Below, in pieces: positions 2,420 through 27,154 of a stretch of DNA of 27,397 nucleotides. Position 1 is the stretch's first letter, and each line of letters starts with the position of its first letter. The notes under the pieces were generated by a model that saw only the letters and a program-made list of their open reading frames with translations, did not search any database and was not told where the DNA came from. The translations under genes were made by a program, and so were the position numbers. The stretch is from the IMG/VR virus record IMGVR_UViG_3300020419_000072, positions 1 to 27,397 of that record; one strand, 5' to 3'. The stretch comes from a virus.

Positions 2420-2634
2420 GTACATTAATAAAAATAGGAAAAGCATTAGAAGTTTTAGGAATAGAAGAATACATTGTAAGAGCAGATGCTTTAATAGACA
2501 CAGAAGAAAAGTTTAATAATGCCTTTAGAAAAATTACTGGTAAAGATGAACACGATAATGCAATAGAAGATTCCGACACAAGTAAGTTTGGTGTTACATG
2601 GTCACAAGTAAAAGCAGAGATGGATAAACAATAA
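2416..2634 (+). CDS. Small conserved-looking protein of the tail gene array (function unknown)
   Basis: A 72-aa, acidic, probably helical protein (MSTLIKIGKALEVLGIEEYI at the N-terminus, FGVTWSQVKAEMDKQ at the C-terminus). It has no signal peptide or membrane segment. The start is a TTG overlapping the TGA of the preceding gene (TTGA), with GGAG at about 2404-2407 upstream, which implies translational coupling. Small acidic genes of this style sit beside fibre genes in marine phages, but I cannot name a function. The minus-strand frame over the same bases is a shadow. Confidence 0.6.
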   Translation: MSTLIKIGKALEVLGIEEYIVRADALIDTEEKFNNAFRKITGKDEHDNAIEDSDTSKFGVTWSQVKAEMDKQ

Positions 2635-2644
2635 GGAGAACAAC

Positions 2645-3115
2645 ATGCCATATATAGGTAAGCAATTAATACAAGGAGAGTTTATAAAGCTAGACAGTAT
2701 TACTACGTCAGCTACAGCAACTTTTGCCTTGCAACGTGCAGGTGTAGCATTTACTCCAGCTAGTGCTGAATCAATGATTGTAAGTTTAAACGGAGTAACA
2801 CAAGCACCTATTGATGCTTATACTTTAAATGGTAGTAATATTGTGTTTGCTTCTGCACTTACAAGTAATGATGTAATAGATTATATAATAATACTAGGTG
2901 AAACAGGTTCATTAACTACACCAGCTGATGGTACAGTAACAGCCGCTAAATTAAATTCACAGTTAGCTAGAGGTGCTACACCAATTAGAATAAATACTAA
3001 TACACTAGCGACTAGCCAGACAATAGCTTCAGGTGAAAATGGTAGTGTCATTGGACCAGTAACAATTAATAATGGAGTGACCATAACTGTGAATGGTACA
3101 TTTACGGTGATATAA
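2645..3115 (+). CDS. Small tail protein, paralogue of the main fibre's N-terminal module
   Basis: A 156-aa protein. Residues 1-92 (MPYIGKQLIQGEF at the start, IDYIIILGETGSL at the end of the module) align by eye with the first 95 residues of the fibre at 120: same MPYxG start, an iN-x-V-x-Q-x-P-x-x-AYT core and a D-x-I-I-I-x-x-E-x-G end. The C-terminus is a beta-rich tail with PVTINNGVTITVNGTFTVI, a pattern often closing phage tail proteins. The gene thus looks like a docking module without a long shaft. The upstream stop is fused to the Shine-Dalgarno (TAAGGAGA), with ATG at 2645. Confidence 0.72.
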   Translation: MPYIGKQLIQGEFIKLDSITTSATATFALQRAGVAFTPASAESMIVSLNGVTQAPIDAYTLNGSNIVFASALTSNDVIDYIIILGETGSLTTPADGTVTAAKLNSQLARGATPIRINTNTLATSQTIASGENGSVIGPVTINNGVTITVNGTFTVI

Positions 3116-3657
3116 TGAGTAAGTTATTTGTTGATGAAATAAAAGGAAATACAGGTACTAGTATTACAGTTCCTACTACACAAAAATTAATAGGAACAGA
3201 TGTAGCATCTATTTATGCTCCTGGAATGATAATACAAACAGTATATAATAATCAATGTAATGCTCAAACAACAAACTCTACAAGTTTAGTTGATACAGGA
3301 TTAACTATAAATATAACTCCTAAATTTCAAAATTCAGTATTTATAATACATTCTTCACAAAACTTTTATGTAACAGAAGAACCAGGAACTGATGCTCAAG
3401 CTCAGTTTGTAATACAAAGAGTTATAAGTGGAGGATCTACTACTCAAATAAAATCAGTTGTTGTAGGAGATCATACTGGTAATGGCACTAGATCTACATC
3501 ATGGGGTGAAAATAATTTTACAGTATATGATTCACCTAATACAACTTCACAATTAACTTATAAAACTCAATATAAAGTTTATAGTAGTGGTTGGAGTGCT
3601 GGTGTTCAAACATCCTCTCAATGCTCACATATTATAGTTCATGAGGTAAAACAATGA
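3115..3657 (+). CDS. Small tail adhesin sharing the C-terminal module
   Basis: A 180-aa protein. An N-terminal stretch MSKLFVDEIKGNTGTSITVP resembles the short leaders of phage fibre proteins. From about residue 36 (APGMIIQTVYNN) to the end (HIIVHEVKQ) it follows the same beta-rich plan as the 1730 and 5656 proteins. Its ATG overlaps the previous TAA by one base and there is only a weak Shine-Dalgarno, so translation probably depends on coupling. Likely a virion tail component; target unknown. Confidence 0.68.
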   Translation: MSKLFVDEIKGNTGTSITVPTTQKLIGTDVASIYAPGMIIQTVYNNQCNAQTTNSTSLVDTGLTINITPKFQNSVFIIHSSQNFYVTEEPGTDAQAQFVIQRVISGGSTTQIKSVVVGDHTGNGTRSTSWGENNFTVYDSPNTTSQLTYKTQYKVYSSGWSAGVQTSSQCSHIIVHEVKQ

Positions 3658-4466
3658 CAAGCACAATAAACGCAGATAAAATAATGAATGGATCTGGAGA
3701 TCAAGACTCTGGTTTAGATCTCTTAGTAAACGATCAGGTTAAAATAAAAACTGCTAATACTGATAGAATAACAGTGACTGATGCTACAACTACTATAGCT
3801 AATAACTTAAATGTTACTGGTAATGTTGAACCAACAGGTTCTGTTAGAGTAGATGATGGTCAATATTTTCAAGCAGGTAATTCTTATGATTTACAAATGT
3901 ATCATGATGGATCTAATTCATATGTTGAGGACCAAGGAACTGGTGATTTAAGAATTAAAGGAAGTGTAACTAGAATATTATCTGATCAAATAAATCTTTC
4001 TAATAATGCTAATACATTAGATGGATTAACAATGGATAGTGCTGGTCGTATAAATAAACCAAAGGCTCCATATTTTTTTGGTGGAAGAAGTGCTGGACAA
4101 ATAGGAGCTGGTTTTTTTGTTTCTAATGTATCTCAAACAAATACTGGAAGTCATTACAATACAAGTAATGGTTTATTTACTGCTCCAGTAACTGGTCGTT
4201 ACTATTGTATGTTTGGAAATTTTGTAAGCCCATATAATTTAGCATCTAATCATTACCAAGTATCTTTAAGAGTAAATAGTAGCTCTACAAAATTTTATTA
4301 TTTTTATCATAAAACTAGTGGTAATGAAGGCCACACACCTATCCATTTTTCTGATGTAATAACTTTAGCAGCAAATGATACTGTTGGTCATTATATACAT
4401 GGAAATCTTACTCTATATGGTGGTGATTGGACTTATGCTACACAAGCATTTTATTTATTAGGATAG
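3654..4466 (+). CDS. Tail fibre with C1q/TNF-like C-terminal head
   Basis: A 270-aa protein. It opens with a short leader (MTSTINADKIMNGSG), then beta-repeat segments such as DLQMYHDGSNSYVED and GDLRIKGS that are characteristic of marine phage fibre shafts. The last 130 residues look like a C1q/TNF-like jelly roll: the signature strand LFTAPVTGRYYCMFG is followed by VITLAANDTVGHYIHG and an aromatic C-terminal strand (AFYLLG). Such heads trimerise and bind surface ligands. The ATG overlaps the previous TGA by four bases, with GAGG at 3643-3646. Fibre assignment is strong; the ligand cannot be predicted. Confidence 0.75.
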   Translation: MTSTINADKIMNGSGDQDSGLDLLVNDQVKIKTANTDRITVTDATTTIANNLNVTGNVEPTGSVRVDDGQYFQAGNSYDLQMYHDGSNSYVEDQGTGDLRIKGSVTRILSDQINLSNNANTLDGLTMDSAGRINKPKAPYFFGGRSAGQIGAGFFVSNVSQTNTGSHYNTSNGLFTAPVTGRYYCMFGNFVSPYNLASNHYQVSLRVNSSSTKFYYFYHKTSGNEGHTPIHFSDVITLAANDTVGHYIHGNLTLYGGDWTYATQAFYLLG

Positions 4467-7868: not shown

Positions 7869-9641
7869 ATGCTACATAATACAGAATTCCTAGGACCTGA
7901 AACATCTATATCACAAGAAATAGATATGATGAAGTACCGGCAAAAAGATGAAAGCTTTGATGAAAAGATTAAAAGAATAGCTAATACATTATCTGATAAT
8001 GAAGATCATAGATATAAGTTAGAAGGTATACTAGGCAACATGAGATTTCTACCAGCAGGTAGAGTACAAGCTGCAATAGGATCTAATAGAATTACAACTG
8101 CATACAACTGTTTTGTATCAGGTATAATAGACGATAACATGAATAGCATAATGGAGAAAGCCAGTGAAGCTGCTGAAACAATGCGTAGAGGCGGTGGGAT
8201 TGGTTATGACTTTAGCCGCATCAGACCAAGAGGCGATAAAATTAAATCACTCGATAGCCAGGCTAGCGGTCCTGTTTCCTTCATGGGTATCTTTGATGCT
8301 GTGTGTCAAACCATCGCTAGCTCAGGACACAGACGTGGGGCGCAGATGGGTGTCCTTAGGGTCGACCATCCGGATATTAAAGAATTCATTGCTGCTAAAC
8401 GTAATTCTGATAAGCTTACTGGTTTTAATATTAGTGTTGGTATAACTGATAAATTTATGGAGGCATTGACTAATGATTTGGATAGCAGCTTTACGTTGGA
8501 ATTCGAAGGAAAGCCGTACGGGACAATATGCGCAAAAGACCTTTGGGATGAAATCATGGATAGCACTTGGGACTGGGCTGAGCCTGGCGTATTATTTATT
8601 GATCGCATAGAGGAAATGAATAACCTTTATTACTGTGAAGAAATATTTGCTACAAATCCGTGTGGTGAGCAACCCCTACCACCATATGGCGCATGCTTAC
8701 TTGGTTCATTTAACCTTACAAAGTATTTAGATGAAGAACAAATTGCAGGTGGTGAGAAAGCACAATCACATTTTGAGTTTGATTTTAAAAAATTCAAAGC
8801 AGATATATATCAAGTAGTAAGAGCAATGGATAATGTTATTGATAGAACTATATATCCATTAAAAGAACAAGCTGACGAAGCTAAGAACAAAAGAAGAATG
8901 GGATTAGGTTTAACAGGACTAGCTAATACTGGTGAGCTATTAGGTTTACCGTATGCATCAGAAGAATTTATGACGTGGTCTGAAAAAATATTTGCATGCT
9001 TAAGAGATACTACATATAAAGCTTCAGCCTTATTAGCAAAAGAGAAAGGTGCATTCCCGTTATATAGAGAAGCATATTTAAAATCTAATTTTGTTAGAGG
9101 GTTACCTTCTTCAGTTAAAAAATTAATAAGAGAACATGGAATTCGTAACAGTCACTTAACTTCAATAGCACCAACAGGTACTATTAGTTTAGTTGCTGAC
9201 AATGTTAGTGGAGGAATTGAACCTGTATTTAGTCATTATTATGATAGAACTATCCAAACTTTTGAAGGGCCTAAGACCGAGAGAGTAAAAGATTACGCTT
9301 ACAATAAAGGAGTTGAAGGACGATCAGCTAACGATATAAATGTTAATGAACACTTAGCTGTATTATTGCTTGCACAAAACTACATAGATAGTGCGTGCTC
9401 AAAAACCTGTAACGTAGGTGATGATATTTCGTATGAAGATTTCAAACAAGTTTATGTTGATGCCTGGAAAGGCGGGGCGAAAGGATGTACCACATTTAGA
9501 CTTAGTGGTAAACGATTCGGCGTACTGCAAACCGTGGAAGAAAAAGAGAAGAACACAGATGCGATTGAGACAGTTAAGGAAGAGGAGCAAGTTGAAGCTT
9601 GTTTTATAGATCCTCAAACTGGTCAAAAGGAATGTGCTTAA
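7869..9641 (+). CDS. nrdJ: Class II (adenosylcobalamin-dependent) ribonucleoside reductase
   Basis: A 590-aa protein that reduces ribonucleotides to deoxyribonucleotides for phage DNA synthesis, in the cytoplasm. The class II signature NPCGEQPLPPYGACLLGS gives N263, thiyl Cys C265, E267 and C276; C265-C276 spacing is 11, as in Thermotoga NrdJ. C81 (TAYNCF) is the partner of the reducible pair; the 184-residue gap to C265 also fits. The phosphate loop APTGTIS is at 434-440, and C578 and C589 at the C-terminus are candidate shuttle cysteines. No ATP cone and no small-subunit gene nearby, both consistent with class II. It interrupts the tail genes. GC varies sharply within the gene (see findings). 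The Shine-Dalgarno GGGGG lies six bases upstream. Confidence 0.93.
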   Translation: MLHNTEFLGPETSISQEIDMMKYRQKDESFDEKIKRIANTLSDNEDHRYKLEGILGNMRFLPAGRVQAAIGSNRITTAYNCFVSGIIDDNMNSIMEKASEAAETMRRGGGIGYDFSRIRPRGDKIKSLDSQASGPVSFMGIFDAVCQTIASSGHRRGAQMGVLRVDHPDIKEFIAAKRNSDKLTGFNISVGITDKFMEALTNDLDSSFTLEFEGKPYGTICAKDLWDEIMDSTWDWAEPGVLFIDRIEEMNNLYYCEEIFATNPCGEQPLPPYGACLLGSFNLTKYLDEEQIAGGEKAQSHFEFDFKKFKADIYQVVRAMDNVIDRTIYPLKEQADEAKNKRRMGLGLTGLANTGELLGLPYASEEFMTWSEKIFACLRDTTYKASALLAKEKGAFPLYREAYLKSNFVRGLPSSVKKLIREHGIRNSHLTSIAPTGTISLVADNVSGGIEPVFSHYYDRTIQTFEGPKTERVKDYAYNKGVEGRSANDINVNEHLAVLLLAQNYIDSACSKTCNVGDDISYEDFKQVYVDAWKGGAKGCTTFRLSGKRFGVLQTVEEKEKNTDAIETVKEEEQVEACFIDPQTGQKECA

Positions 9642-14041: not shown

Positions 14042-14608
14042 ATGGGTGGAGGAAGAAGCGCGCCACAACAAACAGTTACTCAATCAGGTATTGATCCAGA
14101 GTTCAAGCCTTATTTAGAAACAGTTTTAAAAGATGTTACATCTCAGTATGAAGGTGACATGGCTAAAATTAGAGATGGTGATACAAGTAGTATTGTAGCA
14201 GCAATGGATCCTAGTCAAACAGCTGCACTTGATGCACAAAAAGCTTTATCTAATCAAGCTATTACTGGAACTGGTGCATTTGATTATACGAATGCTATGA
14301 ATAGAGCTACACGAGATGTAGTAGGTTCAGCAGCTGGGCAAGCAGCACTTGGTGGTTATGGTGGATCAGCGAGAGCACAGAGAATGATGGCTAGTGCAGT
14401 CGGTGATAAGTCAATGCAATTTCAACAACAAAGACAACAAGATATAGCGTCAGGCGCTAAAGGACTTGGTCAAGTAGGTAGTGCACAACAAGCATTTAAA
14501 CAAGCTCAAATAGATGCACCTGCTACAGCAGCTTCAAGATACTTTGGTTACTTAGGTGCTGCACCTCAACAGCAAACACAAACGACTACTGGTGGCGGAG
14601 GTAAATAA
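14042..14608 (+). CDS. Small ejection-type virion protein (gp14-like position)
   Basis: A 188-aa protein, rich in Gly, Ala and Gln. It opens MGGGRSAPQQTVTQSGIDPE, followed by FKPYLETVLKDV, a start I recall from marine-phage internal virion proteins, and continues with an Ala/Gly-rich region (VVGSAAGQAALGGYGGSARA) and a Gln-rich helix. The low-complexity Gly/Thr tail is probably flexible. It begins the block of ejection genes and occupies the place of T7 gp14. AGGAG at 14029-14033 is eight bases from the ATG. It overlaps the next ATG by one base. Confidence 0.6.
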   Translation: MGGGRSAPQQTVTQSGIDPEFKPYLETVLKDVTSQYEGDMAKIRDGDTSSIVAAMDPSQTAALDAQKALSNQAITGTGAFDYTNAMNRATRDVVGSAAGQAALGGYGGSARAQRMMASAVGDKSMQFQQQRQQDIASGAKGLGQVGSAQQAFKQAQIDAPATAASRYFGYLGAAPQQQTQTTTGGGGK

Positions 14609-15237
14609 TGGTTATACAATTAGCTAAACCGTATGACGAGGAAGAAGCAAAAAGAATGATGGCACGTGCACAGTATACACCAAGACCTGCTCCTGTGGCT
14701 CCACCAGAAAAAGGTATGGTACAAACAGTAGCTGAAACTGTAGGTGCTAACGCAATGGGTAAAGTTGGAGATGCTGCTGCAGGAAAGTTAGGTAAGATGG
14801 CATTAGGTAAAGGTACAGAATTAATGGCAGGTTTAAATACTGCTGGTGCACCACTAGGAGCTATGCTTCCAGGAGGAGCTACAGCAGGAGCAGCAGGTGC
14901 TGGACTTATGCCAATGATGGCTGCGGCTGCACCATGGTTAGCTGGCGCTGCTGTATTAGGTAAAGTGTTTAAGCTATTTAATAGTGGTGGTCCAGTACCT
15001 AGAGGACCTTTATATGCTGGTGAAGGTTCATATACTTATCCTAGCGTAAATTGGGTTCCATGGTATGGTGGTACATTAGGCGAATTAGAAGATGAAGCAA
15101 AAGAAAATAGACTTTACGATCATGATAGAACCCCTAGTGAATGGGAAATAAGAGGCTATGATAAAATGTTTCCAAAATTTAAAGGACTTAATCGAGGCGG
15201 CTTAGTAGACGGACCACTTTCAAATAATAAAGCTTAG
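14608..15237 (+). CDS. Ala/Gly-rich virion protein with tape-measure-like GG motifs
   Basis: A 209-aa protein. After a charged N-terminus (residues 1-35), residues about 75-125 are strongly hydrophobic Ala/Gly-rich (AAGAGLMPMMAAAAPWLAGA), compatible with membrane insertion during DNA entry. Two short motifs, FNSGGPVPRGP and LNRGGLVDGPL, resemble the GG-x-V-x-GP segments usually found just before the 'TDTVPAxLTPGEFV' motif of tape-measure and ejection proteins. That second motif is at the start of the next gene, which lies in the same frame after one TAG and three codons, so the two may be a split of one ancestral protein. Confidence 0.6.
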   Translation: MVIQLAKPYDEEEAKRMMARAQYTPRPAPVAPPEKGMVQTVAETVGANAMGKVGDAAAGKLGKMALGKGTELMAGLNTAGAPLGAMLPGGATAGAAGAGLMPMMAAAAPWLAGAAVLGKVFKLFNSGGPVPRGPLYAGEGSYTYPSVNWVPWYGGTLGELEDEAKENRLYDHDRTPSEWEIRGYDKMFPKFKGLNRGGLVDGPLSNNKA

Positions 15238-15249
15238 GAGTTTAATATG
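15235..15249 (+). other. In-frame amber junction between two ejection-protein genes
   Basis: TAG at 15235-15237 ends the 209-aa protein. The codons GAG TTT AAT and then ATG at 15247 follow in the same reading frame, so amber read-through would yield one protein of about 1410 residues. The TAG is also the first three bases of a TAGGAG stop/Shine-Dalgarno, which argues for ordinary reinitiation instead. Confidence 0.7.
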
Positions 15250-18200
15250 AAATATAAAGCCACTCAAAAAGACCGCTATGGTAATATGAAATCTCTAGAA
15301 ATTACAATGGATAATCAGCTACAAGTTCCTCCTATGACTTCAGCTGTACCAGAGTATGATCATCCTGGAGAACCTAGAGGAACTGATACTGTACCAGCTT
15401 GGCTTACTCCTGGCGAATTTGTTGTTAATAAAGAAGCAACAGATATGTATGGACCATTAATTAAAGAGATGAACGATCAAGGTAGAGAAGTTCAGGATAT
15501 GAAAAAAGATCCTATGTATGCTAAAAAAGGTTCATCAGTTGAAGATAGAAAAATTAAAATTTATAAACATCTTGCTAATGAGTATGGGTTACCTGATAAT
15601 CAAGTAGCTGCAATTATGGGACAAATAGCTCATGAATCTGCAGGTTCATTTGATCCTTTTAAATTAGAAGATAAAGTGCCTGAGTATAAACGAGGTGAAG
15701 GTTTATTTCAAAATACTCCTGGCGCTACTAGAATGCTAAAGCCTTATCATGAGTATCTTATTAAAGAAGGTATTATTCCAAAAGAAAGTATATTAATTGG
15801 AGGCTCAGATTTATTAAAAGATAAAATGACAGAAGATCAGGCAATAAAATCTCAGTTAGATTTCTTTATGAAAAGCTTTATGGATTTTGGAGAGACTACA
15901 TTTGATAAAGATGGTAATCCTATAACAAGTGTATTAGATACAACAAATCCTGTAACAGCGCATGGTTGGAAGAAAGCAAATTTAATGAGAGATACTTTTG
16001 CAGATACAGATTTGCGTACATTAGCAGTTAAGACAGATTCAAATCCTTCATTAACAGGCAGACTTACTTCTTTTATAAATGTGCCTAATGATGCACTTGA
16101 TGCAAGAAATACTGCTACCGAAAAAATGTTAAAAGAAATTAATTCAGGAAAGTATAGTGATTATAAATATCAAGAAGACTTAGGAAATATGCCAACTATG
16201 ATTGGTACATTACCTCAAGATCCTTCTGAAATACCAGGAGGTTTGATTGTTAAAGATATTCCCAGACCTGACTCTGACAGTAAGTCTATTGGGCGTACAG
16301 TTATGGATGCAGCTCAAAAAGGTATTGCAGATACTATTGATACAATAAAATCTATTCCAAGTAATTTTACAAAGGGAGCTGAAGAAACTAAAGCAAGATT
16401 TAATAAAAGAAAAGAATTGTTTAAAAAACCAAATGATAAAGCAACAGCTGAATCAGCGTTTATGTTAGAACCTGGTGGTTTAATTCCAGGTATTGATTTT
16501 CCATCAGAGCCTAGGGATAACGAAGAAAACTTTATTAAAAGAATGTTAGGTTATGATGATAGAACAAGTAGTCCAACACCTGTTACTGATCCAGGATTTC
16601 AAGATTATGGTGAAATGATACCTAGATTTCCAATTGATTATGATCCTCAGGGACTAGGTGGTATGCCTGAAATGGAAAAAATAGATCCTACCTTTCAAAA
16701 TATATTAAGGCAGACTGTGCCAGCTCCTGTGCCTTCTTACGATCCTCAAGGATTAGGTGGAGACGAATTTATTCCAGAGGTAACACCAAATAATATGCTA
16801 ATGAATCCTAATGCAATGGATGACTTAGGTCGAAATAATGACATGACATCTATAATGGGTGGTGATAAGAGTCTTGCAGATGCATTTGCACCTACACAAA
16901 TTCCTGAACCATTTGGAATGGACGATCCTAATCTTATGAAAGCTATGGAAGAATCATTTACTAATGAGCAAGCTTATGATGGAACACCACCAGAAGGTAT
17001 AGGTATGGGAGTGCCTGAACCTACATATACAAGTATGTATGATAAGATGGTTGAAGATGAATTAACTGGTTCACCTGAATATGAGATACCTGAAGTTATG
17101 AGTATGGATCCTCAAGGAATAGGTGGAGACGAATTTATTCCAGCAGCAATAAACAAAAGCGCTAAGCCTGATATGTCTGATATAAATATACTAGATAACT
17201 TAACTTTAGAGCAATCACCTGGCGCTATTAATTCTCAAATAGAAATGTTAGAAAATAATTTAGCTACTAAACTTAATGATCTTAAAACAATTATGGCAAA
17301 CGAACCAGGAGATACAGAAGTTACTAATCTTTATAGAGAAGAAATAAAACGTTTAGAAAATGAGATAGGAGATAAAAAGAAAACACAAGCTCTTATTGAT
17401 TATAAGAAAAAATATTCACAAGAATTTGATGAACGTAAAGCAAAAGAAAAAGAACAAGCTAAAGTTACAAGTCTTCAAGAAACTATTACTTCTAGCGACA
17501 CAACTCAAACAGAAAAAAATGATGCTGCTAAACAATTAAAACAAATGAATATTAAAACACCAGAAGAAATAGCAGCAGAAAAAGAAAAAACAAAGCTAGC
17601 AGCTCTGGCTGGTAAGGTTGATGCTAATCTTGAAGCTGCTATGACTAATGATCTTACTTCAGCTGAAGGTCAAGCAACTACAACTAGTGCATCTCAGAAC
17701 GAACCTGAAGTAAGTAAAGCTAGGAAGATGTTTGATTTCTTGTTTGGTGATATGATTGATAGTGGTGAAATAGGTAGAGCTATTGGAGTGTACTTAGGGT
17801 CTAGAGCTTTAGGTTATGATCATGGTAGTAGTATTGGTTATGTTGCTAAACAATATCTTAAAAGAGTTGATGCACAAAATGCTGCATGGGATAAATGGTC
17901 ACGTGAAAATATGACTAAGTTTACACCAGCATCTATGGCTAAGTTTAAAAGAACTAGGAATCCAAATGATCTTATACCAATAGGTAATCCAATTAGATCT
18001 ACTGGTAAAAGACAAACGTACTATCATCCTACACTAGGTAAGGGACAGGCTTTTGAATTTAAAGTTGCTAATTCTAATGGTGATGATACAACTTACTGGT
18101 CATTCGATCAATCAGGTAAAAATCAAGATCTAGTATTAGGGCCAGGTTGGACTAGCGAAAATGTATTAGATGTATCAACTGAAGAAATTAATTTGATTGA

Positions 18201-18840
18201 GAAAATGTTATCAGGCTTTCAAAGTAAATATGATAAAGTAACTACAGGTAGTAAAGCTAAAGGTAATCAGAAAACTAAATACTTTAGTTCAATGAGTAGT
18301 ACACCTGGAGTTGTACCTGCGGCAGCAGCAGCTGAGGTTGCTCAGTGGTTGCATGAAAGAGGTATACCACCAGGTAAGTTTAAAGAACCTATTGCTGAAG
18401 CTTATAAGTTATTAATAGAACATAATAAACAAAGAGCTGCGGAGGGTGAAGATAGTCAAATCCAAAATTCTTTATTACCTTTCTTACAAGAGTCTACAAT
18501 TAAATTAAGATTAGAAGATATGTCTTATATAGATGATAACGGTAAGAAGCAACCAATACCATCACCTATACAAGGAAAGATAGGAGATGAGATAAGAACT
18601 ATGGATACTAAAGTATTAATGAAACTTGAAAGAGAAATTTCTACATTCTTTCCTGCAGGTACTGAAGATAGGTTCTGGGCACAAGCTGCTAAAGCTTGGA
18701 TGAATAGTTCTGAAACTAGAAAAGAATTTGAAGAAGCTGCAAAGAAGAAAGTAAACAGTGAATACACACCATTCTCATTATTTGCACAAGCTTTAATAGG
18801 AAACGAGCTTCAAAAAGCTGCGGCTAATGCTACTCAATAG
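15247..18840 (+). CDS. Large ejection protein with N-terminal lysozyme-like domain
   Basis: A 1197-aa protein. Residues 44-80 carry the tape-measure-like motif GTDTVPAWLTPGEFVV. Residues about 102-215 fit the phage tail lysozyme (Phage_lysozyme2) pattern: VAAIMGQIAHESAG with E130 as likely catalytic acid, then RGEGLFQNTPGATRML. Such a domain would open peptidoglycan during entry, as T7 gp16 does. A long, probably disordered, Pro/Met/Gly-rich linker holds three DPQG repeats (residues 466, 499, 621). Residues about 660-800 are a charged coiled coil. The C-terminal third (from KMFDFLFGDMIDSGEIG) is unassigned. It is followed by the 1443-aa ejection protein with a TAGGAG junction. Virion role inferred from order and domains. 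Confidence 0.7.
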   Translation: MKYKATQKDRYGNMKSLEITMDNQLQVPPMTSAVPEYDHPGEPRGTDTVPAWLTPGEFVVNKEATDMYGPLIKEMNDQGREVQDMKKDPMYAKKGSSVEDRKIKIYKHLANEYGLPDNQVAAIMGQIAHESAGSFDPFKLEDKVPEYKRGEGLFQNTPGATRMLKPYHEYLIKEGIIPKESILIGGSDLLKDKMTEDQAIKSQLDFFMKSFMDFGETTFDKDGNPITSVLDTTNPVTAHGWKKANLMRDTFADTDLRTLAVKTDSNPSLTGRLTSFINVPNDALDARNTATEKMLKEINSGKYSDYKYQEDLGNMPTMIGTLPQDPSEIPGGLIVKDIPRPDSDSKSIGRTVMDAAQKGIADTIDTIKSIPSNFTKGAEETKARFNKRKELFKKPNDKATAESAFMLEPGGLIPGIDFPSEPRDNEENFIKRMLGYDDRTSSPTPVTDPGFQDYGEMIPRFPIDYDPQGLGGMPEMEKIDPTFQNILRQTVPAPVPSYDPQGLGGDEFIPEVTPNNMLMNPNAMDDLGRNNDMTSIMGGDKSLADAFAPTQIPEPFGMDDPNLMKAMEESFTNEQAYDGTPPEGIGMGVPEPTYTSMYDKMVEDELTGSPEYEIPEVMSMDPQGIGGDEFIPAAINKSAKPDMSDINILDNLTLEQSPGAINSQIEMLENNLATKLNDLKTIMANEPGDTEVTNLYREEIKRLENEIGDKKKTQALIDYKKKYSQEFDERKAKEKEQAKVTSLQETITSSDTTQTEKNDAAKQLKQMNIKTPEEIAAEKEKTKLAALAGKVDANLEAAMTNDLTSAEGQATTTSASQNEPEVSKARKMFDFLFGDMIDSGEIGRAIGVYLGSRALGYDHGSSIGYVAKQYLKRVDAQNAAWDKWSRENMTKFTPASMAKFKRTRNPNDLIPIGNPIRSTGKRQTYYHPTLGKGQAFEFKVANSNGDDTTYWSFDQSGKNQDLVLGPGWTSENVLDVSTEEINLIEKMLSGFQSKYDKVTTGSKAKGNQKTKYFSSMSSTPGVVPAAAAAEVAQWLHERGIPPGKFKEPIAEAYKLLIEHNKQRAAEGEDSQIQNSLLPFLQESTIKLRLEDMSYIDDNGKKQPIPSPIQGKIGDEIRTMDTKVLMKLEREISTFFPAGTEDRFWAQAAKAWMNSSETRKEFEEAAKKKVNSEYTPFSLFAQALIGNELQKAAANATQ
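15550..15891 (+). other. Lysozyme-like domain of the ejection protein
   Basis: Encodes residues about 102-215. The AAI-x-G-x-x-x-HES segment, with Glu130 before Ser, and the following G-x-G-L-F-Q block match the catalytic region of Phage_lysozyme2 enzymes. Domain edges are estimates. Confidence 0.6.
16642..17143 (+). repeat. Three copies of a DPQG(L/I)GG repeat in the linker
   Basis: Copies start at 16642, 16741 and 17107. The second and third are 36 of 37 bases identical (encoding DPQG-L/I-GGDEFIP); the first matches only over its DPQGLGG part. High DNA identity among copies separated by about 370 bases suggests recent duplication or conversion, or a functional short linear motif. Confidence 0.7.
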
Positions 18841-18848
18841 GAGTTTAT

Positions 18849-21800
18849 ATGGTTGATTTTAGTATGCTTCCTAAGCTAGACTTACCTACAATTGAGTTAC
18901 CTAAAACCATTTCAGGAAGCGGTGGGCATACATTTATTGATGGTGATACATTAATGAATGAGGAAGGTAACTTACTTAGAATACAAGGATTAAGTGCACC
19001 AGAAATTCAAAGGCTTATGGATTCTGGTTATATGAAACCTGGTACGCCTGGTGGATTAGAAGCTTATAAACAAATTGAAAAGCTTGCAGAAGAGTTTGGT
19101 TATAATAACGTACAGTATCTTACAAATGATGATGGCTCACCTATGATGGATGCTACAGGTTCAAGGCAGCTTGTAAGGTTAGTTGATGATAAAGGTAGAG
19201 ACTTTACTGAAACACTTTCTCGTTATAATATTAATAAGTTAAGTAAATTTAGTACTAATGAAGAGATAGATAAGTATCGTTTAGGTATGGTTAAAAGATC
19301 TACTAGAAATATTAGAGATCCTTTAAATGAATATGAGAAGTCTTCTTTAATATTAAATGATGCTATTAAATCTGAGCAGTGGTATGATACTCAATTTGCA
19401 AAGGCTGCGTTTAATGAACAAGAACTTGCAAGATTAAATGCTGATAGACAACCTGGAGAATCATTAGCTGCTTTTGCTTTTAGAAAAAAAGAAGCTGCTA
19501 AGTATTCTAAAGTAAGAGTACAGCAAAGAAATACAGATAGAGATATAGAAAACAAATCACTTCATCCGTGGTCTGAAAGTTTTGATGTAGGATGGCAAGG
19601 AGTTATTGAAAGTTTATATGGTGCTGCTGAATTACTTGGTTATAAAACTGGATTTAATTGGTTAGAAAACGTAGGTGAACGAGGTATTAAAAGACAAAGA
19701 GAATATCTTTCAACAAAACCTGATTTAAAGCTAAGTGTTTTAAAACCTGTGCTAGATCCTGATGGTAATGTTATTACTAATGAATGGGATATAAATGGCT
19801 TAGGTGAATTCTTTGAATACATGGGTAACATGACAGCTGTTTCACTTCCTTATATGGGTGTTACTGCTGCAGGTGCTTTAACTGCACCTATTGGTGGTAT
19901 GGCTGCACCAGCTTCTATGTATACAGGTATGACTTGGAATGATATGGAAGGAGAGAACAAAGATAAGAGTGCAACATTAGCAGTAGCTGGTGGTCTTACA
20001 ATGACTGTTCTTGATAGACTAGGTATTAAATTGTTAATGGGTAATGCTACTGGCACTTTATTAAGTAGTAAATACCGTAATGAAATGGTTAAAGGTTTTA
20101 TAAAAAAGAATCCTGGTTCAACTGAGCAACAAGCAAGAGCTGCTATAGCACAGATGACTAGGAAAGCTGCAGCTGAACTTACAGGAGATGCTGCAAAAGT
20201 TGCTAAAGAACAATTAAAGTATGGTAATATTATTAGATCTTTTGCTGCTAGAGCTGGTGTAGGTTTTGGTACAGAATCTATAACAGAAGTAGGTCAAGAG
20301 CTTGCACAATACCTAGCATCAACTGTTGGTAGTGATAAAGAATTTGATTCAGTTGAATTACATGAACGATTAATTAATGCATTTGTAGCTGGTGGTACTT
20401 TAGGTTCTGCATTTTCAGTACCTGGAACTGCATATGATGTAGGTCAATGGACTGATATAAATGTTAGGCAGCTACCAAACCAAGAAAAATTAATGTCACA
20501 AGAACAGAAGTGGCATGAAGAAGAAAATAAAGATTTGCATGATAGATATGTAGAAGGAGATCAAATACCTGCAGGAAAAAATATAGGTGATATAAAACCT
20601 GGTGGTAAATTTGCAAAAGGTAAATCTAAAAGTATTGAAGATAACTTTAATAAGTTTAGAAAAGATGCTTTAAAAAGAGATGCACAATTTAGAAGAAGAC
20701 AAAGAGCACAGACAACTCAAATACAAACTCTTGAAAATCAATTAGCAGATCCTGGAATACCTGCAAATGAAAAAGCTATTATACAAATTAGACTTAATGA
20801 ACTACAAGCATTGCAAGCTAGAGAGGGCGCAGACAGAACTTCATTTCAAGATAAAGTAGAAGCTGGTAAGAAACAATATAAAGCTAGGGATTATTGGGAA
20901 ACATTTAAAGATGCTGCTAATAATTTACCTGTGTTATGGAGAGGAGGTCCAAGGCATTTCTTTTGGAAGGATTCTTTTGGAGCACCTACTCTTAGAAAAA
21001 TGGCAGGCGGTATAGGATCTTACTTAAGAGCCGTGCATACAGGACAAACTTTAGAAAACTTTAAACAAAATAAACTAACTGAATTTAAAAATGACTTAGG
21101 TAGAGTTACATTTAAAGATAAAGATGGTAATGATGTTCAAGAAGAATTTAGTGAAGCTGCTGTAGCAAAAGCATTAGGCTATAAGAATATTAATAAGATA
21201 AAAATATCTGAAGACATATATGAATTCTATAGATTAATAAAGCAAACACCATGGCGTGATATTCAATGGGATACTTTACCTGCTAAGTTTCAAGCAGATA
21301 GAGTTTTCTATGAGAGTATAGCTAGAAGATTTAAATTTGCTGGTGATAGTATGTATGAGCAGCAAAAGAATGCTAGAACTAAATTTGATGATGGCTCATC
21401 GACTGGTAAAAAATGGACAGCAGGTAGGATTGAAAACTATCTTGGTACATTTAGATCTATAGATAAAGCAATGGTTGAAAAGAATAGGGAACAGTTTATA
21501 AAAGATCTACAAGAAGAAAAGAATTATACTTATGAAGAAGCAGTTGCATTAGCAGATGCTATATTAAATAATAATGATATTGTAGATGAAGTATCTTTGA
21601 TGGACTTTAATGTAGGAAGAGGAATACATATACCTGGTCAGCTTAAGAAAAGAACTTTAAACATGGCAGAGAATGAAGTATTAAATAAATATTTAGAAAA
21701 AGATTTGTTTATAAATATTTCTAATGCAGCTAAAGCCGCAGCAAGATATATTACTTATCAAAAATATGTTGGTGATAATGCAGAAATTTTTAATGAAGCA

Positions 21801-23180
21801 TTAGAACAAACGATAGGTAATAAAGAATATACTAGAGAGAAAGCAAACTTTGCTGCTGCGTTTATTCAAGATTATTTAGATGGAGAATCAGGTAACTATA
21901 AGAAGATAAGTAATCCTCAGCTAGCTAACCTGCAAAGAAACCTATTAGTATGGACTACTATGGCTGGCTTACCTATGGCTACTATATCTTCATTCGTAGA
22001 ATACATGATGATACTTAGAGCGCTAAGTCCTGAACAAATAAATGATGTGCTAAAGTTTACTGCTAAAGAATTTGCAAATGCAATATGGGAAACCATGACA
22101 ACAGCTACACCTAATATGAAATTAGCTACATCAACTGAAGGACAGCTGGCTAAAGAAAGAAGGCAAGCTCGTTTAAAAAGATTAGGTTACTTTACTTGGG
22201 ATACAGGTGCAGCTCAAACTACAGGTGCTACTGAGAATACATTTGCTTCAAGATATTTATTAGATAAGTATTTTAGAATAATCTTATTACAACAATGGAC
22301 TGATATAACACGTAATATTCGTGGTGCTATTGCTGATGATTTTATTATGGATCATTTAAGAATTATAAAAAATCAAAGAGATGGTGATACTTTATATACT
22401 AATGAAGTACAAGAATCAGAAGAGCAGTTAAGAAACCTAGGTATAAGAGTTGAAGAACTTTTAGAAATAGATAACTTACCTTTTGATAAGCCAGCTGATA
22501 TGTCAAGAGAAGATCACTTACTTATATTAAGAGATGGTAATAGAAGACTAGATGAGATATTTAGAAATGCTGAATTTAATTTTATTAATGAAGCTATTGC
22601 ATTACCAGGTACTGCAAACAGACCATTGTTTTATCAGAATCCGCACTTAGCATTGTTCACACAGTTCCAGGGTTTTATATCTACATTCTCTGCAACTATT
22701 ATACCAAGACTATGGGGTGACTATATTAAAAGAGGAACACCAGCATTGAAGTATAATGCTTTTGCTATCATGACTACAATGATTGCACTTGGTTTTGTTT
22801 CACAATACTTAAAAGATTTATTAAAGTATGGTCAAGGAAGTCCTTACCTAGATCAAATGGAAAAGTTTCAAAGAGGTGTAGGTTCATCTGGTATGTTAGG
22901 TGTAGCTGAAAGACCATTAAACTTTTTCTTTCCTATATATGAAACATCTTCTAGTAATATAATTGAAGCTATCTTTGATACAGGTACGGGAGAAGCTGCT
23001 GCTTTATCTAACTTATCAAGAGCAGCTACTGGTGCAGGTCAAGTATTGAAAGGATCATTAATGGAAGATGCTAGTATAGAACCAGGTGTATATAAGTTAC
23101 TTAAGACTACTCCAGGTGTAGGACCGTTTAATCAGTTTAATAGATGGACTGCCGCAAAAATCTCAGCAATATTTGAATAA
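18849..23180 (+). CDS. Giant ejection protein with N-terminal nuclease-like (SNase) fold
   Basis: A 1443-aa internal virion protein in the place of T7 gp16. Residues 27-135 align by eye with staphylococcal nuclease: FIDGDTL (D33 = D21), LLRIQGLSAPE (R44 = R35, E52 = E43) and DATGSRQLVRLVDDKGRDFT near R106 (= R87); D40 is replaced by S49 and T41 by A50. The middle has several hydrophobic stretches (SLPYMGVTAAGALTAPIGGM; ATLAVAGGLTMTVL; AFVAGGTLGSAF) compatible with a membrane channel, and a basic coiled coil at about 610-690. The C-terminal part has a conserved-looking block FINEAIALPGTANRPLFY, then LALFTQFQGFISTFSATI. Function as DNA-ejection channel is inference from order and length. Confidence 0.7.
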   Translation: MVDFSMLPKLDLPTIELPKTISGSGGHTFIDGDTLMNEEGNLLRIQGLSAPEIQRLMDSGYMKPGTPGGLEAYKQIEKLAEEFGYNNVQYLTNDDGSPMMDATGSRQLVRLVDDKGRDFTETLSRYNINKLSKFSTNEEIDKYRLGMVKRSTRNIRDPLNEYEKSSLILNDAIKSEQWYDTQFAKAAFNEQELARLNADRQPGESLAAFAFRKKEAAKYSKVRVQQRNTDRDIENKSLHPWSESFDVGWQGVIESLYGAAELLGYKTGFNWLENVGERGIKRQREYLSTKPDLKLSVLKPVLDPDGNVITNEWDINGLGEFFEYMGNMTAVSLPYMGVTAAGALTAPIGGMAAPASMYTGMTWNDMEGENKDKSATLAVAGGLTMTVLDRLGIKLLMGNATGTLLSSKYRNEMVKGFIKKNPGSTEQQARAAIAQMTRKAAAELTGDAAKVAKEQLKYGNIIRSFAARAGVGFGTESITEVGQELAQYLASTVGSDKEFDSVELHERLINAFVAGGTLGSAFSVPGTAYDVGQWTDINVRQLPNQEKLMSQEQKWHEEENKDLHDRYVEGDQIPAGKNIGDIKPGGKFAKGKSKSIEDNFNKFRKDALKRDAQFRRRQRAQTTQIQTLENQLADPGIPANEKAIIQIRLNELQALQAREGADRTSFQDKVEAGKKQYKARDYWETFKDAANNLPVLWRGGPRHFFWKDSFGAPTLRKMAGGIGSYLRAVHTGQTLENFKQNKLTEFKNDLGRVTFKDKDGNDVQEEFSEAAVAKALGYKNINKIKISEDIYEFYRLIKQTPWRDIQWDTLPAKFQADRVFYESIARRFKFAGDSMYEQQKNARTKFDDGSSTGKKWTAGRIENYLGTFRSIDKAMVEKNREQFIKDLQEEKNYTYEEAVALADAILNNNDIVDEVSLMDFNVGRGIHIPGQLKKRTLNMAENEVLNKYLEKDLFINISNAAKAAARYITYQKYVGDNAEIFNEALEQTIGNKEYTREKANFAAAFIQDYLDGESGNYKKISNPQLANLQRNLLVWTTMAGLPMATISSFVEYMMILRALSPEQINDVLKFTAKEFANAIWETMTTATPNMKLATSTEGQLAKERRQARLKRLGYFTWDTGAAQTTGATENTFASRYLLDKYFRIILLQQWTDITRNIRGAIADDFIMDHLRIIKNQRDGDTLYTNEVQESEEQLRNLGIRVEELLEIDNLPFDKPADMSREDHLLILRDGNRRLDEIFRNAEFNFINEAIALPGTANRPLFYQNPHLALFTQFQGFISTFSATIIPRLWGDYIKRGTPALKYNAFAIMTTMIALGFVSQYLKDLLKYGQGSPYLDQMEKFQRGVGSSGMLGVAERPLNFFFPIYETSSSNIIEAIFDTGTGEAAALSNLSRAATGAGQVLKGSLMEDASIEPGVYKLLKTTPGVGPFNQFNRWTAAKISAIFE
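18927..19253 (+). other. Degenerate staphylococcal nuclease-like domain
   Basis: Residues 27-135 of the ejection protein. The order DGDT, R-x-x-G-x-x-A-PE, G-x-EAYKQIEKL, D-x-x-G-S-R and L-x-R-x-x-I-x-K-L-x-K follows the SNase fold end to end. Two of the calcium-binding positions are changed (Asp40 to Ser, Thr41 to Ala), so activity is doubtful. Confidence 0.5.
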
Positions 23181-23191
23181 GGAGAATATAA

Positions 23192-26100
23192 ATGGTACAA
23201 TTTGTACAACAACAAACTGCTAATACTACACCTTCAGATGTATTGCAAGAAAGAAAACGCTTACAAGGATTAGCAAAAAATGTAGGGCTAGTAACTACAG
23301 ATGATAGAATTCAAAGGCGACAATCAGATGCTGCAGTTGAATATAAAAATCCTCAAGAAGAATTATTAAATGAAAACTTAGCAGCACTAGAACAATCTCA
23401 AGATCTTCCTGATGATGCTACACCTGAAGAGTTAGTTAAGATTATGACTAGCCCTACTTATTCTGCAACAATAGATGAAAATGCTGAGCTACAAAAAGAA
23501 ATAAGAAAAACAAATAAGATGGTACCTAAAGTAGCAATGGCTGCAGCTAACTTAGGATTTAAAGGAATAAATACATTAGGTGGTCTTTACAATGTAGCTA
23601 AAGCAACAGAAGCAGTTGGTAAAGAAGGAAGACCATTTACTACAGCGCTAGCAAGAATTGGTAAGACTGCTGCATTAGCTCAAGACTCTATTAATTTGCA
23701 GGTAACTAAAGCACAAAAGAAAATACTATTAGAGACTGGTAGTTGGAAAAATTCTTTCAATGCAAAACAAATAGGTAATGTTGAACCTAAAGCTGGTATA
23801 GAAGGTGGTGTTACATTTGGAACTTTAGAATCTGTTACGCCATCGGTATATATAGGCGATAGAACTATGCCTATAAATCAAACTAATATTTTATTAGATA
23901 CTGTAGGAGCTGCATCTTTAAATGAGAAGGGAAGTATTATTGTAGACCCTGAGTTCTTTAATATCATGGCAGTAAATGCTGAGGACGCTTTCATTTCAGC
24001 AATGTATGCTACTGATCAAGAGCAACAGTCACCTGATATTTTAAATGATATGCAGGATGCAGAGCAACAAGAAAAATCTTATGTAATTAAAAAAGCACAG
24101 GGACTTGAAAGGTTAGGTAAAAATATTTATAGAGAATATAAACAAACTCGTGCAGCTATAGATCAATTACCTACTGATGCTTATATGCAAGAAATTGATA
24201 ATATAAATCCCGGTGTATTTACTATGATAGGTGGTATGGCTAAAGAGTTTTATGCTTCTGCTAACTCAGATATTATGAAAAGAAATAATCCTGATGCTAC
24301 TAAAAAAGAACCTGTATTATATTTTATTAATGAAGAAGGTGCTAGAATATTTGAAGATATGTATAGAATATACTCAGGATTGTTTGCTGCAAAAGAAGTT
24401 AAGCCTCAACCAGGATCTACTAGTGATGGGATTATTGGTGGAGAAGGTGGTCAAATTACAAAGCTAATGACTACACGTATGGCAAAAGATATAGGTGATC
24501 CTGATCAAGCATTTGAAGCAATGAAAAATCAGAATGAAGTAAAAATAAAAAATGATACACAAAGAACTAAGCTAAGTACTTTAATGTTTATGTTAGCTGT
24601 AGGAAATGCTGGAACACCTAAGTCTCAAGGAGATGCAGCTACTAATCAACAACTACCACCTGAGTTTGATTACTTTGAAGACGGACCTAATGGTAGAAAT
24701 TATTATGCTGATGTATTTAAAATTGGTGGTGAAAAGTTTAAAGCATTACAAAATGAAAAGCTTACACTAATTCAAAATGTAAAAGACTTAAGAGCTGCTG
24801 GTGAACCAGAAGCTGTGATTAGTGCGGCACAAGCAATAGCAGATAACTATAGACCTAAAACTATTCTTAGACTTGAAAGAGAAAAAGCTATTAATCTACA
24901 AGAAGCTATACTAAGATATGATAATAAAGAAAATCATTTAACATATGCTTTACAATTATTAACTGGTAGAATGCATGCTCAACAAACTCTTTATAATCCT
25001 CAAGCTCATAAGCAAGTAAGAGGTGTAATAGGTGGTGGTAATGTATTTCAATATGTACCTGGAACTAATAGCGCTGCTGAATTAAATTTTAAACAAGGTA
25101 CAGTTGCTAATTTATTTGAGGATCCTAAAGTTATAGACCCTGCTACTCAACAAAAAATGGGTGAAAGCTTTAAAAAGATGGCAGGCTTTCGTATGCCTAA
25201 AGAATTAAGGTTAAGTACATTTGAAAACCAGCAAGCAACTAAAGGTACTGGTGGATTATGGGATCAGTATGTAGCATGGGGAGAAGAACTTAAAAAACTT
25301 ACTGCTACTTTTACTTTAGCAGAATCAAAATCATATTTAACACAACTTAAAAATGCTAAAAATAATTCTGAAGTTGCACAAATTAAACAAGTATTAACTC
25401 AAAGATTTGGTAATGATCCTATGAGTCCTAGATTAAAAGCTTACTTAGCTGAGTTTGAACAGGATGGTATTAGGCAGGGCGATTACTTAATGGCTTTATA
25501 TGATTATGATACTGTTACTACAAAAAATAAAACAGCATCTGAGCCTATTAAGTTTAATGATACACAGCAATGGGAGAAGGATGGTAAGACACATGGACCT
25601 GCAACTATGGGTATGCAGTTTGGTAGTGTTAGTATGGCTAAGCGATCTGATATGATAATGGAAGTTCCTTATGCAGAGAAGATTCAATCAGGTGAATATA
25701 AAGATTTAAGAGATGCTATGTCTGATACTATGATTAATTCATTAGATAGAATTGTTAACAGTGGTAGTTTAAATAATCTTGGTAGTAATACAGCACCAGT
25801 TTTAAAAGAAATCTTGGATTTATCTATAGCTGATAGAGAAAACTTTTTAAAAAAATCACCTATGACTATGGGGTATGGACAAGATATAAAATCATTAAGA
25901 AGTCATGTTCAAAAAACTGTAGCACAGAATGCTAAGATTAGAAAGTTAATTGAAGATAATGGGCTTGGTTCAAAAAGAACTATAGACTGGCTTCATACAA
26001 TGATGGTAGACTCTGTATTTCAAAACATGGATGCTGATGCTATTCAAACTATGGATACTTTAAAATCTGTAGCTTGGCAATCTGTATTATTAAATCAAAT

Positions 26101-27154
26101 GATTACTATTAGACAACCCAATGGATTAAAAGCATATGCTGGTGGTGTATCATATACAGAAGACACTGATAAATTAAATTGGAAAGCACCTACTGGTACG
26201 AAGATGCGTGAAAAAGAAATACCTTCATCTTTATCAAATGATAAAATTACTCCAGGCACAATAACAGAATCAGGTTTAGTAGCAGAAACAACTTATAAAG
26301 GTACGGCTTCAGCTCAAGCATTAAGAAAAAGACAAGGTGATACTTATGAAGTAGGAGGATGGACTGTTAGTAGAATACTTGCTGAATTAATACAAGCATA
26401 CGATGGTAGTATGGCAGCAGGTGTATTTAGTAATACAAAGTATAATCATAATGGAGGACCACCTTTAGAAACCGGAAACTGGAATAGAATTAAAGCTGTT
26501 GCTAAAGCTAACGGTTCTACTAATACTTTTGTATTACAAAACTTTGATGCGTTTATAGGTGACTCCGGAAGTATAGGTATTGTTGGAGAAGTAGCAAATG
26601 ATATACATAAAAAAGATATCTTAAATGAAAATGCTGCGGCTAAAGTTTTTAATTGGTACCATACAGAAAGAGTTGCTAAGTTAAAAGCATTATCAGAAGA
26701 TGAATCAACTTATGTTATGTTACAAGGTGGTACTTATTATTCGGGAGATGATGCGCAGTTCATGAAGATAGCTGAAATGTTTTCAGGTGAAAGGTATGTA
26801 CCTAAAGGTAAGGGTAAAGCACCTTATAAATCTTTAACTAAATGGCTTAAGAAAAATATACATATGCCATGGGAAAGAGTTAACAGTAAAGAAAGCTTAG
26901 CTGAATGGGATAAAAGAAAGTTTAATGCATCCTGGAAAATGGCTACATCTATTCAAGAAGATTTAAAAGAAACTCTTGAAGCAATGAATAAAGATAATAT
27001 ATTAACTGGTATACAAATACATCAGATAATACAAACTATAAATAAGTATTTAAACTTAGATGCTGCTGTTGCTTTAGCTGAAAAGAATATAAATAAAGGA
27101 AAGCAAACTATAGCTAAGATGATGCCTGGAGCAACAAACAATATCGACTTTTAA
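23192..27154 (+). CDS. Single-subunit RNA polymerase (T7/N4 family) at the end of the virion cassette; candidate virion RNAP
   Basis: A 1320-aa protein. From about residue 560 it carries the single-subunit RNA polymerase motifs in order: TGRMHAQQTLYNPQ (R593 = T7 R425 of the T/DxxGR motif), KDGKTHGPATMGMQ (D797 = D537, motif A), KKSPMTMGYG (K887 = K631, Y895 = Y639, motif B), LNWKAPTG (T7 has VHWVTPDG), YDGSM (T7 QDGSH) and NFDAFIGD (D1119 = D812, motif C). Both metal-binding Asp and the catalytic Lys and Tyr are present; T7 H811 and H784 are replaced. About 560 N-terminal residues (one hydrophobic patch near 112-135) and 130 at the C-terminus are extra relative to T7. The TAAGGAG junction couples it to the ejection protein, as expected for a packaged polymerase like N4 gp50. 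It would transcribe early genes after injection. Confidence 0.85.
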   Translation: MVQFVQQQTANTTPSDVLQERKRLQGLAKNVGLVTTDDRIQRRQSDAAVEYKNPQEELLNENLAALEQSQDLPDDATPEELVKIMTSPTYSATIDENAELQKEIRKTNKMVPKVAMAAANLGFKGINTLGGLYNVAKATEAVGKEGRPFTTALARIGKTAALAQDSINLQVTKAQKKILLETGSWKNSFNAKQIGNVEPKAGIEGGVTFGTLESVTPSVYIGDRTMPINQTNILLDTVGAASLNEKGSIIVDPEFFNIMAVNAEDAFISAMYATDQEQQSPDILNDMQDAEQQEKSYVIKKAQGLERLGKNIYREYKQTRAAIDQLPTDAYMQEIDNINPGVFTMIGGMAKEFYASANSDIMKRNNPDATKKEPVLYFINEEGARIFEDMYRIYSGLFAAKEVKPQPGSTSDGIIGGEGGQITKLMTTRMAKDIGDPDQAFEAMKNQNEVKIKNDTQRTKLSTLMFMLAVGNAGTPKSQGDAATNQQLPPEFDYFEDGPNGRNYYADVFKIGGEKFKALQNEKLTLIQNVKDLRAAGEPEAVISAAQAIADNYRPKTILRLEREKAINLQEAILRYDNKENHLTYALQLLTGRMHAQQTLYNPQAHKQVRGVIGGGNVFQYVPGTNSAAELNFKQGTVANLFEDPKVIDPATQQKMGESFKKMAGFRMPKELRLSTFENQQATKGTGGLWDQYVAWGEELKKLTATFTLAESKSYLTQLKNAKNNSEVAQIKQVLTQRFGNDPMSPRLKAYLAEFEQDGIRQGDYLMALYDYDTVTTKNKTASEPIKFNDTQQWEKDGKTHGPATMGMQFGSVSMAKRSDMIMEVPYAEKIQSGEYKDLRDAMSDTMINSLDRIVNSGSLNNLGSNTAPVLKEILDLSIADRENFLKKSPMTMGYGQDIKSLRSHVQKTVAQNAKIRKLIEDNGLGSKRTIDWLHTMMVDSVFQNMDADAIQTMDTLKSVAWQSVLLNQMITIRQPNGLKAYAGGVSYTEDTDKLNWKAPTGTKMREKEIPSSLSNDKITPGTITESGLVAETTYKGTASAQALRKRQGDTYEVGGWTVSRILAELIQAYDGSMAAGVFSNTKYNHNGGPPLETGNWNRIKAVAKANGSTNTFVLQNFDAFIGDSGSIGIVGEVANDIHKKDILNENAAAKVFNWYHTERVAKLKALSEDESTYVMLQGGTYYSGDDAQFMKIAEMFSGERYVPKGKGKAPYKSLTKWLKKNIHMPWERVNSKESLAEWDKRKFNASWKMATSIQEDLKETLEAMNKDNILTGIQIHQIIQTINKYLNLDAAVALAEKNINKGKQTIAKMMPGATNNIDF

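Follow-up and report, generated by a model that had tools for sequence, protein, structure and literature searches.

In a 27.4-kb stretch of a virus contig from IMG/VR (record IMGVR_UViG_3300020419_000072; "the window" denotes this whole stretch of 27,397 nucleotides), the ejection cassette ends in a gene for what is very probably a compact virion-associated RNA polymerase (vRNAP), a homologue of the gp50 polymerase domain of phage N4 that is synthesized late, as the last of three large ejection proteins. Computed sequence comparisons and the predicted fold support its assignment to the single-subunit RNA polymerases (ssRNAPs) of the N4 vRNAP type. An earlier note, made from the sequence alone, had recognized RNA polymerase (RNAP) motifs in this protein and interpreted it as a packaged and injected enzyme; the observation is confirmed and the interpretation supported by the analysis below.

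The catalytic core is readily recognizable. Counterparts of T7 R425, D537, K631, Y639, and D812, which the earlier note had listed in this order, are all present, in the segments TGR593MHAQQTLYNPQ, EKD797GKTHG, FLK887KSPMTMGY895GQ, and QNFD1119AF. The distance from motif A to motif B is 90 residues, exactly as claimed (94 in T7), and K887 and Y895 are spaced by 8 residues like K631 and Y639 of T7. Among unique relatives, G592 and R593 (46/46), R610 (46/46), E795 (48/48), D797, G798, and G802 (49/49), K887 and Y895 (51/51 each), and D1119 (49/49) are invariant; conservation in the blocks GRM..YNPQ and SPMTMGYG is partly selected for, as these were the DNA seed patterns by which relatives were retrieved, while D797, E795, R610, and D1119 lie outside the seed patterns. 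Moreover, EKDGKTHG matches ExDGxxxG, the published vRNAP signature (PMC10654107). In N4, E557, R440, and K437 contact the initiating nucleotide (PMC4496689), and they correspond to the invariant E795 and R610 and to K607, which is kept in 35/46 relatives. One segment of the original motif set did not hold up: the W-x-x-P-x-G proposed between motifs B and C (W997-x-x-P1000-x-G1002) is not kept, with W in 5/51 relatives. T7 WVTPDGF pairs instead with IRQPNG in the family, and G978 is invariant (51/51).

The relatives behind these counts were collected from IMG/VR, where the window protein itself matched two near-identical contigs, a fragment at 99%, and a single homologue (L003, aligned at ~59% identity). 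As a profile scan with a two-sequence alignment gave poor seeds, relatives were sought with DNA patterns of two conserved motif blocks. This biases the selection in both blocks; it brought the relatives to about 50 in all, down to 26% identity and with long open reading frames (ORFs) of about 1160–1480 aa. In hhalign, the two-sequence profile was too shallow (E 0.17 to N4, 0.26 to T7), its best matches lying already on motifs A and B. A tblastn search with one relative (L071) against 50,697 phage records returned solely vRNAPs of N4-like Vibrio phages, at weak E-values of 0.03–0.08.

On sequence profiles, the nearest relative is the N4 vRNAP and not T7 RNAP. Aligned with a profile built from the vRNAPs of 13 Schitoviridae (N4 mini-vRNAP), the family domain reaches a score of 98.8 (probability 97, E 1e-10), as compared to 50.0 with T7-like RNAPs. 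The 13 vRNAPs and the window family have GRM..YNPQ..K..R, ExDGxT(N/H)G, K.P(L/M)T...YG, and FD in common. Forced global alignment brings R593, D797, and D1119 into register with N4 R424, D559, and D951, and K887–Y895 falls on the N4 KNPLTITIYG block, a motif B pairing that was checked by eye. In the T7 alignment, D797 lies on D537 and KKSPMTMGYG on KRSVMTLAYG. The scores of 100 column shuffles do not exceed 27.5 and that of the reversed profile is 19.8, so the motif match is beyond chance. Negative controls, namely the two other large ejection proteins of the cassette and gp6 of phage ICP2, score 20–22 against the N4 mini-vRNAP profile.

These controls decide on the view that the gene encodes an ordinary internal virion protein whose motifs match polymerases by accident. 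Such a view draws on the empty sequence searches: the window protein has no match in Pfam, PHROGs, PDB sequences, or the 50,697 phage records (tblastn), and hmmsearch with a 33-sequence family profile found none among PDB sequences. However, true ejection proteins stay far below the family score, as do the shuffled and reversed profiles, and the Foldseek matches listed are all ssRNAPs. Chance resemblance and a plain structural protein are both highly improbable and were rejected on the grounds of shuffling, reversal, and the negative controls.

The predicted structure points in the same direction. An AlphaFold2 (AF2) model of residues 131–1320, computed from 33 sequences (predicted local distance difference test, pLDDT, 76.9; predicted template modeling score, pTM, 0.73), is confidently predicted to adopt the cupped-right-hand polymerase fold of ssRNAPs. 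Foldseek ranks the N4 vRNAP polymerase domain (2po4) first among PDB entries (E 1e-11, prob 1.00), followed by mitochondrial and T7 RNAPs, and all PDB matches listed are ssRNAPs; matches in the viral library are phage RNAPs, vRNAPs among them. The earlier note had named the lack of an RNAP fold in a predicted structure as grounds for giving up its reading; the structure was predicted, and an RNAP fold was found. At a low maximum-accuracy (MAC) threshold, hhalign aligns residues 236–1286 of the window protein to residues 127–1093 of the N4 mini-vRNAP. With an alignment that begins this far upstream, the polymerase takes up the greater part of the protein. Thus, the claim of a complete ssRNAP in the C-terminal half stands as to the enzyme, whereas its confinement to residues 560–1320 does not, given an alignment reaching ~236 and an AF2 fold covering 131–1320.

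The right part of the window is a rightward late cassette, and the polymerase gene is the third of its three large ejection-cassette genes. As the earlier note had stated, it closes the chain, its ORF (23192–27154) following the stop side of ejection protein 2 after 11 nt. The encoded protein lacks cysteine in all of its 1320 residues (P about 1e-5 at the cysteine rate of the other window proteins). The family as a whole has one cysteine in 40,547 residues, located ahead of the likely start in L003, and the 13 Schitoviridae vRNAPs have none. In contrast, the T7-like RNAPs encoded on the same contigs as family members contain 8–11. Gene position, absence of cysteine, and the resemblance to N4 together suggest that the protein is probably packaged in the virion and injected.

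Alternatively, the gene could encode a T7-type RNAP whose location among the late genes is incidental and which, once synthesized late, works in the infected cell and is not part of the virion. ssRNAPs are normally cytoplasmic, which favors this assignment, but by profile the enzyme is closer to vRNAP than to T7 RNAP, and it is free of cysteine as ejection proteins are, unlike the T7-like RNAPs of the same phages. Further, the genes of two ejection proteins directly adjoin its own, both in the window and in two other genomes (G001 and G004), and these phages already have a neighboring gene for a cytoplasmic T7-like RNAP. We therefore regard a non-virion enzyme as quite improbable and retain the packaged vRNAP.

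Table 1. Positions of the polymerase gene, its motifs, and the other genes of the ejection cassette in the window.
Feature	Position	Strand	Basis
Compact vRNAP-like ssRNAP, 1320 aa, 0 Cys, final gene of ejection cassette	23192..27154	+	ORF, motifs, hhalign, AF2/Foldseek, Cys count
Approximate polymerase domain, about residues 236–1250	23900..26950	+	hhalign and AF2 model of 131–1320; boundaries approximate
GR...YNPQ..K..R motif, residues 591–610; R593 = T7 R425 / N4 R424; K607, R610 = N4 K437, R440	24962..25021	+	Alignments
Motif A EKDGKTHG, residues 795–802; D797 = T7 D537 / N4 D559; E795 = N4 E557	25574..25597	+	Alignments
Motif B KKSPMTMGYG, residues 887–896; K887 = K631/K670, Y895 = Y639/Y678 (T7/N4)	25850..25879	+	Alignments
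Motif C NFDAF, residues 1117–1121; D1119 = T7 D812 / N4 D951	26540..26554	+	Alignments
Two small Cys-free genes (188 and 209 aa), head of ejection cassette	14042..15237	+	ORF list, Cys count
Ejection protein 1, 1197 aa, 0 Cys, Phage_lysozyme2 lysozyme domain	15247..18840	+	Pfam E 1.9e-8
Ejection protein 2, 1443 aa, 0 Cys, virion structural protein family phrog_6958	18849..23180	+	PHROG E 9e-19

The phages that carry this gene also encode a canonical T7-like RNAP. In L003, an enzyme of 729 aa (14661–16850, minus strand; PF00940 E 5e-59) is convergent with the vRNAP-like gene and closes a leftward operon of replication genes; a canonical T7-like RNAP of 729 aa, likewise convergent, is found in L002 (12920–15109, minus strand), whose vRNAP-like protein is 98% identical to that of the window. 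A canonical enzyme of ~730 aa was present in 10/10 relative contigs searched, and it is absent from the window because the contig ends. The mixed N4/T7 lifestyle suggested in the earlier note is strengthened by this convergent arrangement in the sister contigs.

The genome context is best seen in G004, a relative of 58,008 bp that is complete as judged from its 77-bp terminal repeat. Rightward, it encodes TerL, portal, scaffold, major capsid protein (MCP), class II ribonucleotide reductase, the ejection genes, and the vRNAP; leftward, the replication genes and the RNAP. Its portal and MCP are nearest to those of Roseobacter phage CRP-7 (52–53%) and next to those of other podoviruses such as Pseudomonas phage tf, with no Schitoviridae portal or MCP among the matches listed. 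Judged on G004, as the window has no portal or MCP genes, the host phages are by portal and capsid sequence not Schitoviridae. One relative (L122, NZIO01000029.1) comes from a contig of 15.6 kb assigned to a 'Candidatus Pelagibacter' metagenome-assembled genome, a weak hint of a SAR11 host. In the window, a class II (B12-type) ribonucleotide reductase is encoded within the structural gene block (7869–9641; 93% identity to the G004 copy). A 270-aa protein in the tail fibre region (3654–4466) has a C1q-like domain match barely over the Pfam cut-off.

In G004, the early region, a part of the genome that the window lacks, contains five hairpins at 21375, 24675, 25319, 25617, and 26191 (1375, 4675, 5319, 5617, and 6191 of L107, which is G004:20001–40000). 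They follow the consensus AAATTTnn-4nt-nnAAATTT with an 8-bp stem and a GWTA/TAWC loop, show compensating stem changes, share one orientation, and are computed to fold as single-stranded DNA. Four of the five sit 38–180 nt upstream of leftward early ORFs, and no hairpin family of this kind appeared in 20 shuffles of the early region. Hairpins of the N4 style (6-bp stem, 3-nt loop) are not enriched in G004. Because N4 vRNAP uses hairpin promoters (PMC4496689), the natural reading of the G004 hairpins is that they are candidate vRNAP promoters.

From these computed features we infer the most likely scheme of packaging, injection, activity, promoter use, and hand-over. The vRNAP-like protein would be packaged and would leave the particle together with the two other ejection proteins. 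It would then transcribe the first-entering early genes from hairpin promoters on single-stranded DNA. Early and middle expression would yield the T7-like RNAP, whose gene is the last of the leftward replication operon; this second enzyme would take over and transcribe the other, probably late, genes. Such a scheme would resemble the relay from vRNAP to RNAPII in N4, except that a T7-type enzyme of one chain replaces the two-chain RNAPII.

Several results besides the empty database searches weigh against this picture. The Foldseek TM-scores are moderate (TMq 0.36–0.40, root-mean-square deviation 10–18 Å) and there is no tight superposition, which may be expected of a distant multi-domain homologue. 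The counterpart of T7 R627 / N4 R666 in motif B is shifted by one residue and variable (R882 is R in 40, K in 7, T in 3, and A in 1). As ICP2 gp6 is free of cysteine and yet gives no RNAP signal against the N4 mini-vRNAP profile, the lack of cysteine points to ejection and not to polymerase function. Further, neither the partial genomes G001 and G005–G009 nor CRP-7 yielded the hairpin family of G004, and the G004 hairpins are possibly operators or (weak) terminators.

The variable arginine counterpart also belongs to the case for a dead or repurposed ssRNAP fold, according to which the protein would be a purely structural ejection protein, e.g., part of a channel or of a DNA-pulling device, without RNA synthesis. 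Consistent with this idea, a second RNAP able to do the transcription is present, and divergence is fast: between G004 and its relatives the vRNAP-like protein is 30–46% identical, while the T7-like RNAPs are 76–97% identical, and among the genes compared (G001, G004–G009) the vRNAP-like gene is the fastest-diverging save one tail gene. However, about 50 sequences keep every metal-binding and NTP-handling residue of the catalytic site unchanged while their remainder diverges to ~30% identity, as in an enzyme under selection. A dead fold is thus unlikely, and we favor an active vRNAP.

A natural vRNAP of about one third of the usual length, carried by marine phages whose portal and capsid are unrelated to those of N4, would show which part of gp50 is essential, and its small size would suit biochemical work with hairpin promoters on single-stranded DNA. 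It also suggests that a packaged starter RNAP may be a more widespread way of bypassing host transcription, and it adds a further case in which a link between ejection proteins and transcription can be tested. In ocean podoviruses outside the Schitoviridae, an injected minimal vRNAP may start from AAATTTnn-loop-nnAAATTT hairpin promoters of the early region before a one-chain T7-like RNAP takes over; packaging, ejection, and early transcription would then not require the giant flanking domains of gp50. For this proposal we see the chances as evenly balanced.

vRNAPs are known as proteins of about 3,500 residues and as a hallmark of N4-like phages. With 1320 aa, the window protein falls well short of the range of about 2842–3820 aa in reference genomes (PMC10654107). 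An IMG/VR survey of N4-like viruses dropped vRNAP homologues below 2,500 aa (PMC10654107), and enzymes of ~1320 aa would consequently have been missed. In the literature searched, with subscription papers and preprints mostly outside its scope, we found no phage in which a compact vRNAP is accompanied by a one-chain T7-like RNAP.

Precedents outside the Schitoviridae are weaker claims, reported in Poorviridae and guessed for StenR_269 and Zobellviridae. The description of the Poorviridae phage vB_PunP_Y3, a marine podovirus of 48.9 kb, presents ORF30 as a distant vRNAP hallmark outside the Schitoviridae (PMC11654794); by that description, ORF30 was identified by PSI-BLAST and the DNA polymerase and MCP are also N4-related. 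For StenR_269, DES1, and Zobellviridae, a large Cys-free protein of the ejection region was put forward as a putative short vRNAP on the basis of size, helicity, lack of cysteine, and low-confidence models (PMC10747016). The zobellviral ICP2 gp6, a protein proposed as a vRNAP, has no match to the N4 mini-vRNAP profile. Alteromonas phage vB_AspP-H4/4 (L013, Autographiviridae) has two annotated ssRNAP genes (921–3047 and 19779–22169), one of them named 'N4-like RNA polymerase'.

The nearest cultured phage found is CRP-7 (MK613349), with 52% identity in the portal, 53% in the MCP, and 35–36% in the T7-like RNAP. Its gp33 (L011:17859–21566), a Cys-free hypothetical protein of 1235 aa in the syntenic slot, shows a weak N4 match in motif C only (E 2e-4), has no local sequence match to the window family, and gave no usable AF2 model with its family (pLDDT 37). 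Together with L113–L121, gp33 is possibly a more divergent vRNAP.

With N4 gp50 (Schitoviridae; PDB 2po4, 3c2p, 9pnq), the window enzyme shares the motifs GRM..YNPQ..K..R, ExDGxTxG, K.P[LM]T...YG, and FD, residues equivalent to E557 and R440 (and to K437 in the majority of members), the absence of cysteine, and the ssRNAP fold. As in N4, its gene is the 3'-most of the ejection set, beside convergent early and replication genes, and a second T7-type RNAP coexists. In contrast to gp50 (about 3000–3600 aa), its 1320 residues leave no room for the ~1000-aa N-terminal and ~1400-aa C-terminal parts. Further differences are the one-residue shift in motif B, the non-Schitoviridae portal and MCP of the host phage, and the partner RNAP, which is a gp15/gp16 heterodimer in N4 and a single chain here. 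T7 RNAP (Autographiviridae, PF00940) has the ssRNAP catalytic motifs in common with the window enzyme, including a gap-free motif B (KRSVMTLAYG / KKSPMTMGYG) and a similar A-to-B distance. The window enzyme differs from it in the weaker profile match, the missing PF00940 match, the lack of cysteine, and the late structural location, and these phages have a separate gene for their canonical PF00940 enzyme.

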